This document shows, in pieces, positions 1 through 5,094 of a DNA stretch of 30,839 nucleotides (position 1 is its first letter; every line of letters starts with the position of its first letter). This DNA comes from a virus, in IMG/VR virus record IMGVR_UViG_3300042939_000015, positions 1 through 30,839 of that record, one strand, 5' to 3'. Made by a program: the position numbers and the translations under genes. The notes beneath the pieces are model-generated. The model had not been told where the DNA came from. It was given only the letters and a program-made list of their open reading frames with translations, and did not search any database.

Positions 1-2
1 TG

Positions 3-98
3 CACGACCTCCTAAATTCCGGCTATGTCGGAGTAACCAAATCGTACTATCACAAACTCGAAACCCCAACCCCAACCATTTACAACCCCCAACCATGA
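3..98 (+). CDS. C-terminal end of an unidentified phage protein (5' truncated)
   Basis: An open frame runs in from the left edge and encodes 31 residues ending in TIYNPQP before a TGA at 96-98. That stop overlaps the ATG of the next gene in an ATGA arrangement, the usual sign of translational coupling in this phage, so this is more likely a real gene end than chance. The residues before it include a Tyr/Lys-rich segment (VTKSYYHKLE). Too little is present to assign a family. Its position just before an SSB-like gene suggests a replication or DNA-metabolism gene upstream. Confidence 0.5.
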   Translation, partial: HDLLNSGYVGVTKSYYHKLETPTPTIYNPQP

Positions 99-334
99 GC
101 AGTTACACCCCCCAACCCAACACCTTCACCCTGTTCGTAAACGACAAGGGCGACAACCCGAAACGCCCGGATTACCGAGGCGACGTGGTCCTTCCCGATG
201 GAACCAAGATGCGCCTCTCCGGGTGGGTCAAAGAATCCAACGGCAAGCGATTTATATCCGGCAAAGTGGAGCCGATGCAAACGCAGACCAGCGGTGGAAA
301 TCTTGCACCCCAAGATGGTGACATGCCTTTTTAG
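95..334 (+). CDS. Small SSB-like / DUF736-like DNA-binding protein
   Basis: This 79-residue protein is built of short beta-strand-like segments (TLFVNDKGDNPKRPDYRGDV, then TKMRLSGWVKES and RFISGKVEP), which resembles the small DUF736-like proteins found beside phage replication genes. It ends in PQDGDMPF, which looks like the acidic D-x-[IM]-P-F tip through which bacterial SSB proteins recruit partners. I infer that it binds single-stranded DNA or mimics SSB during replication. The start is the ATG that overlaps the upstream stop. It is followed by a structured, terminator-ending leader and then the primase-helicase, which fits a replication role. Function is inferred from resemblance only. 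Confidence 0.6.
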   Translation: MSSYTPQPNTFTLFVNDKGDNPKRPDYRGDVVLPDGTKMRLSGWVKESNGKRFISGKVEPMQTQTSGGNLAPQDGDMPF

Positions 335-336
335 TG

Positions 337-463
337 TAAATTTGTGCCTTAGATACATTTACATACATAGCCCATTTGTAATTGCAGCCAAATGGTGCTA
401 CCGATAAAGGGTTCATTCTCTAACCCCTGCCCCGGCTGCTGCAATCAGTCGGGGTATTTTTTT
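337..463 (+). ncRNA. Structured leader or small RNA with complementary hairpin loops
   Basis: The 137-base gap between two replication genes holds no gene but has three successive hairpins. Hairpin 1 pairs 372-378 (CCATTTG) with 389-395 (CAAATGG). Hairpin 2 pairs 409-413 (GGGTT) with 422-426 (AACCC). Hairpin 3 is the terminator at 430-454. The loop of hairpin 1 contains ATTGCAGC (381-388), the exact reverse complement of GCTGCAAT (438-445), which is the terminator loop plus its closing base. A TAAATTTG (337-344) and an ACATTTAC (355-362) upstream could be -7 promoter elements, though neither has a TTG at the right distance. It may be a small RNA, or an attenuator controlling the primase-helicase gene that starts 9 bases after the T-tract. 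Confidence 0.45.
430..463 (+). terminator. Rho-independent terminator upstream of the primase-helicase gene
   Basis: A 9-bp stem, CCCCGGCTG (430-438) with CAGTCGGGG (446-454), has one G-T wobble, a 7-base loop, and is followed by TA and seven T residues (457-463). It sits 8 bases before the ATG at 472, so it either ends the upstream transcript or acts as an attenuator for the downstream gene. Confidence 0.8.
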
Positions 464-471
464 CTTATCCT

Positions 472-2709
472 ATGGCAGAAATATCAATGTTCAAAGCGTC
501 CACCAATGGCGGTGTGCGAAACAATGTCCCCGAAGACCATATGCCTTTTGTCCAGTACATACAGGACATTAAGGACGGCATCTACTACACCGAGGTCATG
601 GCTTACCGAAACGCCAATACCGAAGAAACCAAACGCAGGCTTTCAGCCGTAACGCCCAGCGGTAAGTTTAAGAAGCAGGGCAAGGAAGGTCTTGAAACGC
701 ATTCGGGAATAATCTGCATCGATATCGATGCCAAGGACAACGAAGGCGTTGACGTGCTTGCAATTCGCCAAGATGAACACCTATACGCTTTGCACCAAAG
801 TGCCGGGGGTCAAGGGTATGCAGCCTATTACCGCATCGAAGCCGACCGACACTTAGACGCTTTCTTTGCTTTGGAGAAACGCTTGGCAGACCGTTATCAC
901 ATCATTGTGGATCCCGCTTGCAAAGACGTAAGCCGTTTGAGGTTCGTGAGTTTTGACCCGGACGCATTCATCACCGACAAACCTGTTCCGGTATTTAAGA
1001 CCTACCTACCCAAGGCCAAGGCTGCACCAGCCCCAAAGTTTTACCCACACGGTGAACACGATGTCGAACACATCCTTCAGCAAATCGAAGCCAAGCGAAT
1101 AGACCTAACAGATTCTTATGCCGATTGGGTCAAGATTGGCTTTGCCATTGCTGCAAAATACCATGAGCAAGGTGCAGACCTGTTCCATCGGGTTTCAGCA
1201 CTATCCCCAAAGTACAACCCGGAAGCCTGCGACAAAAAGTACAAGCAACTCTGCAACTCCAAGCAGAATCAAGTGTCCTTTGCTTCCTTTATGTGGCTTG
1301 CCAAGAATGCAGGTGTAGAGATTCAAACCAAGACCACCAAGCACATCGTTTCCACAACCAAGTCCCACCGTATGCGTGTTGGTACCAATGGCGGTCCCAA
1401 GGACATCAACGCAGCAACCGAAACCGCAGTTCGCATACTTCGGGAGATAGACAACATCGACATCGATGGACTCGAAGAAATCGTTGCCAACACGATGGCT
1501 CTTGATGCTACGGAACTAAAATCCGCTGATACCGAGGACACACCGATAAAGCAGATAAAGGCTTACTTACGTTCATTTAACCTAAAACGCAATGCAGTAA
1601 CCCGTTGCATTGAATTAAAGGGAGAGCCAATTACCGACGTTGACATCAATGACCTTTACACCGATTGTCTTGAGCAATTTGGAAAAAAGGAAGTTAATAT
1701 GCAACTCATTAACTCAATTATTGATTCAAGCCATACACCGACCTACAATCCATTCACCCAGTTCTTTGCAAAGCACGGACATCGTCAACCCTTTGGGTGC
1801 ATCGAAGCCCTGACCAATACCATTACAACTACCAATTTGGATCACCATTTTATGCAACTTTGCATTCATAAATGGCTCTGCTCGGTCATCGCAAGTATGC
1901 ACGGGGAATACTCTCTTTCAATACTGGTCCTTTGTGGCGACCAGGGCATCGGCAAGACCAACTTCTTTCGTAACCTGCTGCCCGATGAACTTCGGGCCTA
2001 TTACGGGGAATCCAAACTGGATGCCGGGAAGGACGATGAAATTCTTATGTGCAAGAAGATTATCCTCTGCGATGACGAGTTCGGTGGCAAATCCAAGCAG
2101 GAAGCCAAGAAACTCAAGGAATTGTCCTCCAAGCAAACCTTCAGCATCCGCAAGCCCTACGGCCGGGTGCATGAGGAACTGAATCGCTATGCGGTCCTTT
2201 GCGGTACAAGCAACGACGAGGAAGTCATCAACGACCCAACGGGTAACCGTAGGATCCTGCCCATTGTGATCAGCGAGATTGACTGGGATGCCTATGCAGC
2301 CATCGATAAGACCGACCTGTTTATTGAAGCCCTGCATTCCTACAAGTTAAACGGCACCGATTCTTGGCAACTGTCCAAAGCAGAGATTACCATGCTTAAC
2401 GAAAAGACCCTAAACAACATTCAGCCAGCAGTGGAGAAAGAATTGCTATACAATTACTTTACTATTCCCGATGAAAAAAACGACGGCATAGGTGCGGAGT
2501 GGTTAACCAATTCCGAAATTAAAAACATCATTGAATCATACACCGAGCAGAAAATCAATCAAAACAAACTTGGGGCCATTTTAAAGTCCATTGGATGCAA
2601 AAAGGTAAGCCGAAGTGAACGGGACAACCGTGGTTGCTATTTACTCATCCCTAAAACGAATAGTAGTAACTATCAGCAAAGGCTTGGTAATCAGGACAAA
2701 CCATTTTAG
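472..2709 (+). CDS. Primase-helicase (BT4734-like/VirE N-terminal, primase C-terminal-like and VapE-type ATPase domains)
   Basis: This 745-residue protein probably primes and unwinds DNA at the phage replication fork. The N-terminal third resembles the BT4734/VirE N-terminal primase-like domain, with a CIDIDAKDN acidic motif (D84 and D86 visible). A middle segment with DSYADWVKIGFAIAAKY resembles the primase C-terminal-like (PriCT) domain. The C-terminal half is a VirE/VapE-type P-loop ATPase with Walker A GDQGIGKT (489-496), an acidic Walker B-like CDDEF (D534, D535, E536), and a downstream CGTSNDEEVINDPTGNRR sensor-like segment. The last ~100 residues are AT-richer and may be a DNA-binding tail. 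The ATG at 472 follows the terminator directly; an ATG at 487 is an alternative start. Confidence 0.88.
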   Translation: MAEISMFKASTNGGVRNNVPEDHMPFVQYIQDIKDGIYYTEVMAYRNANTEETKRRLSAVTPSGKFKKQGKEGLETHSGIICIDIDAKDNEGVDVLAIRQDEHLYALHQSAGGQGYAAYYRIEADRHLDAFFALEKRLADRYHIIVDPACKDVSRLRFVSFDPDAFITDKPVPVFKTYLPKAKAAPAPKFYPHGEHDVEHILQQIEAKRIDLTDSYADWVKIGFAIAAKYHEQGADLFHRVSALSPKYNPEACDKKYKQLCNSKQNQVSFASFMWLAKNAGVEIQTKTTKHIVSTTKSHRMRVGTNGGPKDINAATETAVRILREIDNIDIDGLEEIVANTMALDATELKSADTEDTPIKQIKAYLRSFNLKRNAVTRCIELKGEPITDVDINDLYTDCLEQFGKKEVNMQLINSIIDSSHTPTYNPFTQFFAKHGHRQPFGCIEALTNTITTTNLDHHFMQLCIHKWLCSVIASMHGEYSLSILVLCGDQGIGKTNFFRNLLPDELRAYYGESKLDAGKDDEILMCKKIILCDDEFGGKSKQEAKKLKELSSKQTFSIRKPYGRVHEELNRYAVLCGTSNDEEVINDPTGNRRILPIVISEIDWDAYAAIDKTDLFIEALHSYKLNGTDSWQLSKAEITMLNEKTLNNIQPAVEKELLYNYFTIPDEKNDGIGAEWLTNSEIKNIIESYTEQKINQNKLGAILKSIGCKKVSRSERDNRGCYLLIPKTNSSNYQQRLGNQDKPF

Positions 2710-2909
2710 ATAGTCACTACATTCACTAAAAATGCGATTTTCCTTATACAATATATATGTGGGTGTGTGTGTGTGTGTGTGTATGTATTATATATACTCT
2801 AAAGAAAGTAGTAGATATAGTGACTATGTGACTATGAACCCCCCTAACGATATCAAAAACGCAGATTTTTATATTCACTACAACATTTTTGCAGTAACTA
2901 TCAGTGACT
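2710..2909 (+). other. AT-rich, repeat-bearing gap: candidate replication origin
   Basis: This 200-base gap between the primase-helicase and the SF2 helicase carries no convincing gene. It contains ATAGTCACTA (2710-2719), whose reverse complement TAGTGACTAT is at 2818-2827, and TGACTATG three times: twice in tandem (2821-2836) and once at 2905-2912 overlapping the helicase start codon. TAACTATCAG occurs at about 2895-2904 and again near the end of the upstream gene. ATATATAT and ten GT units (2763-2782) followed by TATATATAC give an easily melted tract. Iteron-like repeats plus an AT-rich tract between replication genes suggest an origin or a regulatory region. A 27-codon ORF at 2834-2917 is possible but weak. 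Confidence 0.4.
2763..2782. repeat. (GT)10 dinucleotide microsatellite
   Basis: Ten uninterrupted GT units are flanked by ATATATAT on the left and TATTATATATAC on the right. Perfect microsatellites this long are unusual in phage DNA. The tract lies in a non-coding gap and is prone to slippage and to Z-DNA or unwinding. Confidence 0.95.
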
Positions 2910-4340
2910 ATGCTTAGACCCTACCAACAAACCGCTATTGACCAAATGCGGACAAGCATTGCCGAGGGCAAAAGACGCTTGATACTCTGCTCCCCGACTG
3001 GGAGCGGTAAGACGGTCATGTTCTCATACATGGTGGCACGGGCCTTAGAGAAAGGCAAGCAGGCCATTATCTTCACGGATCGGGTGGAACTGCTCCGGCA
3101 ATCCAACGGGGCCTTGGACCAGTTCGGTATCAAGCCGACGCTCATTGAGGCAAGCAAGACTCGTCTGGATGTTTCAGGAAATTGCTTTATCGCTATGGCC
3201 CAGACATTCAGCCGAAGGAAGGACGCTACCGAATACAAGGACCTATTGGCCCGGATGGACCTTGTAATCATTGACGAGGCTCACAAGCAGACATTTAACC
3301 CTCTGCTGCCATACATCAACCCCAATGCCGTAGTCATCGGTGCAACGGCAACACCTGTTAGAAGGGGTAAACAGGAATGTCTTTCAAAATTTTATCAAGC
3401 ATTAATACAACCTGTTCAGGTATCGGAATTAATTGAACAAGGATATCTTTCTTCTTTAATTAGTTATGGAGTATCAATTGACTTTCTTGCAAAAATTAAA
3501 ATGAAAGGAGATGATTACGATTTAAAAGAAATGGCTGATATGTATAGCGAAAAGAAAGTTTATGAAGGGGTTGTTTATAATTACGATAAATTTACACCTA
3601 AGAAAAAGGCTATTCTTTTTGCCAGCAACATCGCATCAAGCAAGGAGGTTTGCGAGGCTTTGCAGGGTGCAGGGTTCAACGCCCGGCACGTTGACGGAGA
3701 GATGCCAAAGTCCTTGCGAGCCGATACCCTTGCATGGTTTAAAGAATCAACCGATGGGATCCTTTGCAACTGCGATTTAATGACTACGGGTTATGATGAG
3801 CCAAGCATCGAGGTTGTCATCCTTTACCGGGCGACTGCGAGCCTTCCGTTGTTTATGCAGATGGTTGGCCGAGGCTCAAGGGTTACGCCTACTAAATCAC
3901 TTTTCACTTTACTTGATTTTGGCAATAACATTCAAACCCATGGGTATTGGGAGGATGACCAAAATTGGTCCCTAAAAAAGAAACGCATTCGTGAATCATC
4001 CGGAATTGGTGGCGTCAAAAATTGTTTTCAATGCAAGGCTACTATACCCATTGCTGCTATGGAATGCAAGTATTGCGGTTTTGTTTATCAACTAAAACCA
4101 AAAGAAACCAATGAAATGGTAGAGTTATCACGCCTCTCTAAACCTCAAGCGATGCAGATAGCCAAGCAAAGCACGATGTATCAAAAGGCTCAACTGGCAA
4201 AGGCCAAAGTGATCAGTCCATACTGGGTGCTACACAACTGCAAGAGCAGGGCCGAGGCCGAAGAGTTTGTCAGTTACATGGGATGGAAGCGAGGTTGGTA
4301 TTTTCACAATGCAAAACGATTTAAAATCTTTCAATCATGA
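2910..4340 (+). CDS. SF2 DEAD/DEAH-box helicase with C-terminal zinc finger
   Basis: This 476-residue protein has the motifs of a superfamily 2 helicase of the restriction-enzyme-like/UvrB-like type. Walker A is SPTGSGKT (28-35), DEAH lies near 122-125, ATATP near 145-149, and motif VI is QMVGRGSR (317-324). A C4 zinc-finger-like segment follows (Cys372, 375, 386, 389). It probably unwinds or remodels DNA in replication or recombination. The ATG at 2910 was preferred to a GTG at 2904 because the protein then begins MLRPYQQTAI, a typical Q-motif-like helicase start. The middle (about 3361-3600) is much more AT-rich than the flanks. Its TGA overlaps the ATG of the nuclease gene. Confidence 0.9.
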   Translation: MLRPYQQTAIDQMRTSIAEGKRRLILCSPTGSGKTVMFSYMVARALEKGKQAIIFTDRVELLRQSNGALDQFGIKPTLIEASKTRLDVSGNCFIAMAQTFSRRKDATEYKDLLARMDLVIIDEAHKQTFNPLLPYINPNAVVIGATATPVRRGKQECLSKFYQALIQPVQVSELIEQGYLSSLISYGVSIDFLAKIKMKGDDYDLKEMADMYSEKKVYEGVVYNYDKFTPKKKAILFASNIASSKEVCEALQGAGFNARHVDGEMPKSLRADTLAWFKESTDGILCNCDLMTTGYDEPSIEVVILYRATASLPLFMQMVGRGSRVTPTKSLFTLLDFGNNIQTHGYWEDDQNWSLKKKRIRESSGIGGVKNCFQCKATIPIAAMECKYCGFVYQLKPKETNEMVELSRLSKPQAMQIAKQSTMYQKAQLAKAKVISPYWVLHNCKSRAEAEEFVSYMGWKRGWYFHNAKRFKIFQS

Positions 4341-4666
4341 TGTCCGAGTTCAAACTCCAAGCCGAATGCTTCCAGTGGCACTGGAACAACTTTCCCAACG
4401 ACCGGGGCCGATTATTCACCGTAAACAACAACGCACCGAATGCCTATGCCGGCAGCGTGATGAAAGCCATGGGCGTGGTGGCAGGGGTTAGCGACATGAT
4501 ATGGCTCTCGCCAACCGGTGCGGTGATGCTGGAGTTCAAAGCCGAAAAAGGAAAGCAGTCCCTCTCGCAGAAGTGGTGGCAGGGGGTGGTCCAAGAGGCA
4601 GGCTACCGATACGAGGTCATCCGAAGCATTGAGGATTTTCAGCGAGTGGTTGCAAGTGTGGAATAG
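4337..4666 (+). CDS. VRR-NUC domain nuclease
   Basis: This 109-residue protein matches the stand-alone VRR-NUC fold, a PD-(D/E)xK-type nuclease found in many phages and thought to act on branched DNA or to partner SF2 helicases. Visible motifs are GVSDMIW (Asp at about 53), an E-F-K signature in VMLEFKAEKG (E66, K68), and LSQKWWQGVVQEAGYRYEV, typical of the family's last helix and strand. It starts at ATG 4337, which overlaps the TGA of the helicase gene; an in-frame ATG follows immediately at 4340. The coupling suggests that helicase and nuclease work as a pair in recombination or fork processing. Confidence 0.88.
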   Translation: MMSEFKLQAECFQWHWNNFPNDRGRLFTVNNNAPNAYAGSVMKAMGVVAGVSDMIWLSPTGAVMLEFKAEKGKQSLSQKWWQGVVQEAGYRYEVIRSIEDFQRVVASVE

Positions 4667-4680
4667 ATGTGTAAATTTAC
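4650..4680 (+). promoter_or_regulatory. Promoter-like TTG-N19-TAAATTTA
   Basis: TTG at 4650-4652 is followed after 19 bases by TAAATTTA (4672-4679), close to the Bacteroidota -33/-7 pattern. It overlaps the end of the nuclease gene and precedes the AT-rich gene at 4703. AAATTTAC (4673-4680) is one base from the ACATTTAC motif seen at module starts. Confidence 0.5.
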
Positions 4681-4702
4681 GATATAATTAAAACCCCAAA
4701 AC

Positions 4703-4981
4703 ATGAGAAAATTAACTTTAGAACACGTATCCCATTGCATCATTGATGCTACCATTGAACACAATGGGGAGCGACATAGGACCGAGTCATATGTTGCTAT
4801 AACCTTTTTAAATCACGGATGTGCTCAAATGTTTATTGATTTACCATTTGAAAAAGAATTGAAAGAAATTGATAGAATAAAAATAGTTTTTCGTGGAGAA
4901 GACGAGAAAGAAGCACTTGCAAAGTTTTTTAAAGCGTTTGCTAAAGAACTTGAAGAAAATTTGTGGTTTGACCATATTTAA
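4703..4981 (+). CDS. Unidentified AT-rich small protein
   Basis: This 92-residue protein (MRKLTLEHVSH...) has alternating charged and hydrophobic segments: an N-terminal strand-like region with His and Glu residues, then a charged helix rich in Lys and Glu, ending in FDHI. No family is recognised. By hand count its last 180 bases are about 29% GC, against roughly 55% in neighbouring genes. Together with its own promoter-like site upstream and the operator-like dyads downstream, this suggests a recently acquired moron-type gene. The ATG at 4703 follows an A-rich leader (AAAACCCCAAAAC) typical of starts in this phage. Confidence 0.6.
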   Translation: MRKLTLEHVSHCIIDATIEHNGERHRTESYVAITFLNHGCAQMFIDLPFEKELKEIDRIKIVFRGEDEKEALAKFFKAFAKELEENLWFDHI

Positions 4982-4995
4982 ACTATGCGACTACC

Positions 4996-5046
4996 GTCAG
5001 CCTACACGCTGACAAAACCTCACCAATCGTCAGCCTATAACCTGAC
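4996..5046. promoter_or_regulatory. Two tandem 18-bp dyads (operator-like)
   Basis: GTCAGCCTACACGCTGAC (4996-5013) has a perfect 6-bp inverted repeat. GTCAGCCTATAACCTGAC (5029-5046) has the same ends with a 5-bp inverted repeat. Their starts are 33 bp apart, about three helical turns, so both would face the same side of the DNA. No T-tract follows, so they do not look like terminators. They lie in the non-coding gap before the gene at 5095, as repressor operators would. Confidence 0.5.
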
Positions 5047-5094
5047 ATAAAATACCCAAAACCTCGCAAATTGTCCCATATAAAACCCAAATTT

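Follow-up and report, generated by a model that had tools for sequence, protein, structure and literature searches.

The element described here lies at positions 337-463, on the + strand, of the IMG/VR virus record IMGVR_UViG_3300042939_000015 (1-30,839; this whole stretch of 30,839 nucleotides is the window of our analysis), and it belongs to phages known from metagenomes. As the genes of the window include those for small and large terminase, a portal-like protein and tail proteins, the DNA comes from a tailed phage, whose host, judging by the promoter box and the relatives, is probably a member of the Bacteroidota. The element is situated between a gene for a single-strand DNA-binding protein (SSB), whose product has a D-M-P-F-stop tail similar in sequence to the SSB tail, and a primase-helicase gene (Table 1).

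Transcribed rightward, 366-463 has a minimum free energy (MFE) fold of three hairpins only, with an energy of -35.3 kcal/mol and a z of about -3.6 to -3.8: hairpin 1, a small hairpin 2, and a GC-rich hairpin followed by a U-tract, which has the makings of an intrinsic terminator. The segment GCTGCAAT of the terminator hairpin is the exact reverse complement of ATTGCAGC in the loop of hairpin 1; seven of its eight nucleotides lie in the loop proper, G438 being the base that closes the stem. The original prediction had placed both hairpins and the two complementary segments correctly to the base, and the exact 8-nt complementarity that it reported between the loops is confirmed with this one refinement. 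An 8-nt inverted match anywhere within 127 nt arises in about 5% of shuffles; when the region was shuffled 5000 times, no 8-nt match between two predicted hairpin loops arose. When 127-nt stretches of the whole window were scanned in 40-nt steps on both strands, 337-463 was the sole place on either strand with two predicted hairpin loops complementary over 8 nt.

Table 1. Features of the kissing-loop element and its neighbourhood in the window
Feature	Position	Strand	Remarks
Upstream gene, single-strand DNA-binding protein	2..334	+	Open at contig start; PHROG 18154, E 1.6e-7
TAAATTTG	337..344	+	Fits TAnnTTTG, the -7 box of Bacteroidota sigma-A, exactly
Second -7-like box, TACATTTA	354..361	+	Aligns with invariant TATATTTG of group 2 (A1, A2)
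Hairpin 1	368..400	+	368-378 with 389-400, 396 bulged (core 372-378/389-395, extension 368-371/397-400); loop 379-388 (10 nt)
Kissing segment 1, ATTGCAGC	381..388	+	Inside the hairpin 1 loop; basis covariation
Hairpin 2 (GGGTT/AACCC), small spacer	409..426	+	Pairs 409-413/422-426
Intrinsic terminator	428..463	+	Stem 428-438/446-456, 7-nt loop 439-445, U-tract 457-463
Kissing segment 2, GCTGCAAT	438..445	+	Terminator loop and closing G; basis covariation
Primase-helicase gene	472..2709	+	BT4734-like_N, PriCT_2, VapE-like; ATG 8 nt past the U-tract

Homologues form three sequence groups

Relatives of the downstream primase-helicase are encoded on 243 stretches in IMG/VR, and the RNA is present in most of the best 80 of these 243, which were examined, that have upstream sequence; a terminator-only scan added loci in further gene contexts. 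The homologues share a general layout of about 95 nt in three parts: a first hairpin, whose loop has 8-10 nt; a small hairpin that acts as a spacer; and an intrinsic terminator, whose loop has 6-8 nt. The terminator stem and the T-run are retained in all aligned relatives, and hairpin 1 is likewise retained as a hairpin, its stem varying in sequence between the loop types described below. Hairpin 2 seems to be a spacer that tolerates insertions, since in L051:2867-2984 and L136:1092-1216 it carries a long inserted hairpin and the loops of hairpin 1 and the terminator still match.

Three sequence groups can be distinguished: group 1, the window-like RNAs; group 2, comprising L073, L075 and others, with primases 47-48% identical to that of the window; and group 3, the two RNAs L071 and L072, whose loops likewise match. 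Compared by eye, RNAs of different groups align over little more than the terminator stem and the -7 box. Covariance models nevertheless detect one group from another: R1, built on group 1, finds L073 (E 1.2e-4), and R2, built on group 2, finds the window (E 2.4e-5) and L072 (E 1.5e-4). The comparisons below use two alignments with 69 distinct RNAs in total: A1 (group 1, 47 RNAs) and A2 (group 2, 22 RNAs).

At the DNA level GenBank phages gave no relatives. The cultured relatives, compared at the primase protein, reach only 30-41% identity: Nonlabens P12024 and Flavobacterium mumin6 have no gap ahead of the primase and the RNA was not seen there, nor was it seen in Cellulophaga phi46:1, where the gap before the primase folds differently and more weakly. 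Prophage-type primase relatives in Bacteroidota genomes are without the RNA, and model R2, run under strict filters and with no positive control, had no match in 396 Bacteroidota genomes. In L058:2826-2892 and L066, upstream of primases that are more distant relatives (62-67% identity), there is no kissing RNA, and a different long hairpin with a T-run precedes the gene.

The two loops covary without wobble pairs

The original prediction had proposed looking for compensating changes in the two loops among related phages, and such changes proved to be many in both alignments. In A1, 98.4% of the kissing pairs are standard, five of the seven pairs are double-changed, and there are 72 double-changed cells with no one-sided change; shuffles gave a mean of 75.6% paired and reached the observed covariation score in 0 of 500 cases, and slid registers gave at most 67% paired. 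In A2, 99.3% of the pairs are standard and again five of seven are double-changed, with 24 double-changed cells, none one-sided, and 0 of 500 shuffles reaching the score. Only two of the seven loop pairs are invariant in each group.

The mode of change sets the kiss apart from the stems: G-U pairs occupy none of 312 kissing cells, as against 43 of 423 cells of the terminator stem and 25 of 332 of the predicted hairpin 1 stem. Three variable A1 pairs change via double transversion, so that no wobble path is available to them. As read from the aligned sequences, the stems drift via wobble pairs whereas the kiss jumps between Watson-Crick states, in many cases via double transversion (U-A to A-U, G-C to C-G, C-G to A-U). 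The G-U pairs in the stems also point to the + strand RNA as the molecule that folds. A U-turn (YUNR) was sought in the loops by eye: an invariant U is present, and the motif is absent from some types.

True mismatches in A1 and A2 are confined to L122 and L078, the other unpaired A1 cells being an alignment gap in L127. L122:6284-6385 has hairpin 1 of one type and the terminator loop of another, and is apparently recombinant; L078:379-478 has one loop mismatch. Both appear to be recombinants or recent mutants and are useful as natural controls. Hence, either the pairing is not absolutely required or these phages are recent recombinants. In 11 contigs obtained later and lying outside the alignments the loops match in every case (11/11), all with already known types. 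Taken on the comparative evidence, it is close to certain that the loop-loop pairing is real and under selection.

Loop types switch rapidly

The matched loops fall into about 17 types. Computed loop duplexes average -12.4 kcal/mol for cognate and -4.8 for non-cognate combinations, and the loop matching was equalled by 0 of 100000 permutations. Types differ between close relatives: across 127 distinct loci, 111 of the 189 pairs with 95-98% identity over the 500 nt downstream are of different types, as do 8 of the 23 pairs with 98-100% identity there, and the type switches even between phages with downstream genes 97-100% identical. In aligned examples most of the change falls on hairpin 1 and the terminator loop, with the spacer, the terminator stem and the start of the gene nearly constant. 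On a 46-tip primase gene tree six types require at least 19 changes, a count that is built on the downstream gene and that recombination of whole RNA cassettes inflates if it is read as a number of mutations. The same type is found ahead of different genes, and the same gene with different types. This rapid switching of matched types favours self/non-self recognition over a plain switch in cis.

Promoter and gene context

Two boxes precede the RNA. The first, TAAATTTG, is the only exact TAnnTTTG on either strand within 1-5087; the second reads TACATTTG in L051, L090, L153 and L190. TAnnTTTG is the consensus of the Bacteroidota -7 box, which occupies -12 to -5 in Flavobacterium psychrophilum (PMC9723704). 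With the second box placed likewise, transcription is predicted to begin near 366, where the stem of hairpin 1 has its foot. As the minus strand before 5088 holds no exact TAnnTTTG (a search for exact matches only, which leaves room for weaker promoters), there is no obvious counter-transcript.

Between the U-tract and the ATG of the primase-helicase there is no promoter-like box. In the homologues 5-27 nt separate the end of the terminator from the ATG, and promoter box, RNA, terminator and gene follow one another in a constant order. The genes themselves are not: they encode a primase-helicase, DUF6291, DUF3223, ParB-like/methylase or unclassified proteins, and usually belong to replication. 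The contigs with L111 and L448 and with L082 and L449 have the same RNA before ParB-like/DNA methylase and DUF3223 genes. Hence, it is the position of the RNA rather than the gene that is conserved; and since DUF3223 and ParB-like/methylase genes have no plain place in replication, a role in controlling replication is not universal. Control of the primase-helicase, as originally predicted, is consistent with the direct adjacency of that gene in the window and does not extend to the homologues that precede DUF6291, DUF3223 or ParB-like/methylase genes. The two forms that had been suggested for the transcript, a leader and a small RNA, both fit these observations.

The upstream neighbour of the RNA is an SSB-like gene or some other gene. 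One copy of the RNA is present per record in 19 of 20 records; in the twentieth it occurs at both contig ends, in the manner of a terminal repeat. That record is the L154 contig (33430 bases), with the RNA at 20-118 and 33323-33421, which suggests a terminally redundant, near-complete genome. The 40-kb record IMGVR_UViG_2222084011_000057 (L057, L064) has two primase-helicase genes, 84% and 89% identical to that of the window, and possibly joins two phage variants. GC skew, inspected for an origin, gave no clear signal. A phage-integrase domain was found in 0 of 20 related records, many of them fragmentary; classical lysogenic immunity is therefore unlikely, and any benefit of self-recognition would stem from co-infection.

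A proposed mechanism and its alternatives

As a tentative yet plausible reading, we infer that the element is a terminated leader RNA of about 95 nt in which the kiss controls read-through and confers type-specific self-recognition, probably in trans. Because nothing promoter-like separates the terminator from the ATG, transcription of the downstream gene would have to pass the terminator and its expression would depend on read-through, so that the RNA would by its position act as an attenuator. In the nascent transcript the loop of hairpin 1 would capture the terminator loop as it emerges, and this kiss in cis would oppose closure of the terminator base and favour read-through. Released copies of the same type, bearing the same two loops, would kiss the nascent loops in trans and thereby restore termination, which would amount to negative feedback on the replication gene. 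As only matching loops recognize each other, every loop type would define a separate specificity group, much as in plasmid incompatibility or phage heteroimmunity, and such groups would explain the fast diversification of the loop pairs.

The favoured read-through step in cis draws on the geometry of the RNA and on the guanidine-IV precedent discussed below. When hairpins are treated as rods, a kiss with all hairpins closed needs 81 Å in the window, where the linker provides 84 Å (just possible), 78 Å as against 72 Å in L075 (strained), and 90 Å as against 48 Å in L071 (impossible). As the linker is too short or barely sufficient, a kiss in cis is likely to compete with closing of the terminator. 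The restoration of termination in trans, also favoured, draws on the evolutionary pattern of the loop types. We favour the combined model because trans recognition accounts for the diversification of types and a cis switch does not; plasmid attenuators with loops that set orthogonality (PMC3753616, PMC4878617) and the c4 RNAs that underlie P1/P7 heteroimmunity (PMC12197685) are precedents for such recognition. A further step, possible if on the unlikely side, is a new class of phage RNA that regulates its own kind: during co-infection, phages that share a type would repress one another's replication operon and phages of different types would ignore each other, the matched loops being under diversifying selection. 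This would amount to self/non-self discrimination by RNA in phages that lack lysogeny genes.

A pure cis switch, which we regard as unlikely, would have hairpin 1 kiss its own terminator loop in response to a factor, a metabolite or the speed of RNA polymerase, with no action in trans; the loop changes would then represent compensatory drift and recombination. The conserved terminator and the gene-proximal position suit such a switch, and guanidine-IV shares the architecture, its upstream loop kissing the terminator-hairpin loop and stretching the linker (PMC7736828, PMC11611296). However, diversification would bring a cis pair no gain, and yet there are at least 19 type switches without wobble intermediates; the loops, with two of seven pairs invariant per group, offer no conserved ligand pocket; and the group 3 linker falls far short of the full structure unless hairpins open.

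It is quite unlikely that the element is a structural RNA multimerizing through its two loops, like the phi29 pRNA or GOLLD/ROOL, with the replication genes as incidental neighbours. The loops of pRNA covary likewise and mutual mismatches abolish its function (PMC12670572), other phage-borne RNAs build RNA-only homo-oligomers through kissing loops (PMC12286853), and the strained kiss in cis of the rod estimate makes intermolecular pairing easier. Set against this are the conventional small and large terminase of the window, hence no motor of the pRNA type, the lack of an Rfam match to pRNA, GOLLD or ROOL, and the use of a terminator loop as partner at a fixed spacing from the gene, which suggests regulation.

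Distinctly improbable is a stand-alone small RNA that acts in trans on RNAs of the host or of other phages, with the kiss keeping the loops inactive or protecting the RNA. Its own promoter box and terminator, its constant size and its occurrence before more than one kind of gene would agree with this; however, loops that vary freely could read no conserved outside target, and the ATG follows the U-tract without a further promoter box. A DNA-level element, i.e. single-stranded hairpins at an origin or primase site, would suit the location between the SSB and primase genes, but is very improbable given that the G-U pairs of the terminator and hairpin 1 stems pair only in + strand RNA, that the T-run lies on one side of the stem only, and that a promoter box lies at the right distance. 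Chance complementarity within an ordinary terminator region, for all that inverted matches of this length do arise in shuffles, is a negligible prospect: covariation, seen independently in both alignments, and conservation in three sequence groups have already refuted it and make the question moot.

If recognition does occur in trans, the element would show how phages that lack lysogeny genes could count or recognize their own kind during co-infection; if the kiss acts in cis, kissing-loop antitermination would extend beyond riboswitches. In either case the element provides orthogonal RNA loop pairs, tied to a terminator, as a compact and natural set of high diversity: the clear covariation permits direct tests with compensatory mutants, and RNA design can use the loop types as orthogonal parts just as they are.

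Comparison with known systems

Rfam contains no family that matches the element at the gathering score, and up to E 10 there was nothing credible, the best sub-threshold matches being unrelated. The original statement that no named family has this layout nevertheless goes too far, since guanidine-IV and the phi29 pRNA are precedents. In guanidine-IV (GGAM-1/mepA) the terminator hairpin forms a kiss, through its loop, with the loop of an upstream hairpin, a contact proposed to keep the outer terminator stem from closing and hence to antiterminate (PMC7736828, PMC11611296). The phage RNA shares the upstream hairpin loop complementary to the loop of a terminator hairpin; however, the highly conserved loop nucleotides of guanidine-IV form a ligand pocket, whereas those of the phage RNA are hypervariable matched pairs, five of seven changing in each alignment. 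Further, guanidine-IV precedes guanidine genes, whereas the phage RNA sits in a replication module and has a spacer hairpin between the two partners.

In pT181 attenuation orthogonal specificity is set by loop sequences (PMC3753616, PMC4878617), and the leader likewise combines a 5' hairpin with a terminator ahead of a replication gene. That system uses a counter-transcribed antisense RNA, whereas both partner loops of the phage RNA are on one strand and no exact antisense promoter box is present before 5088. The pT181 antiterminator pairs with the terminator stem; in the phage RNA the covarying partner is the terminator loop with its closing base, and MFE folds have no long competitor of the stem in the window, L075 and L071, L073 having an alternative fold.

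The CI RNA of phage P4 acts through premature termination ahead of the primase-helicase operon. The c4 RNA of P1/P7 is a short phage RNA in which complementary sequences define heteroimmunity (PMC12197685). Like the present element, both are short RNAs of phages that arise in a leader or are processed out of one. They serve prophage immunity and act on separate target segments, whereas here the pairing is loop-to-loop within one terminator RNA, and no integrase domain was found in 20 related records, many of them fragments.

In phi29 pRNA two mutually complementary loops covary between phages (PMC12670572). There the loops pair over 3-4 bp and build the ring of the packaging motor; here the pairing spans 6-9 bp and one of the loops belongs to a terminator. 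The pRNA model of Rfam gave no match and there is no prohead-binding three-way junction, the fold consisting of three simple hairpins. Since the layout of a hairpin loop matched to a terminator loop has precedent, the element is not categorically new; the most fitting description is a new RNA family that is a variant of the kissing-loop regulators.
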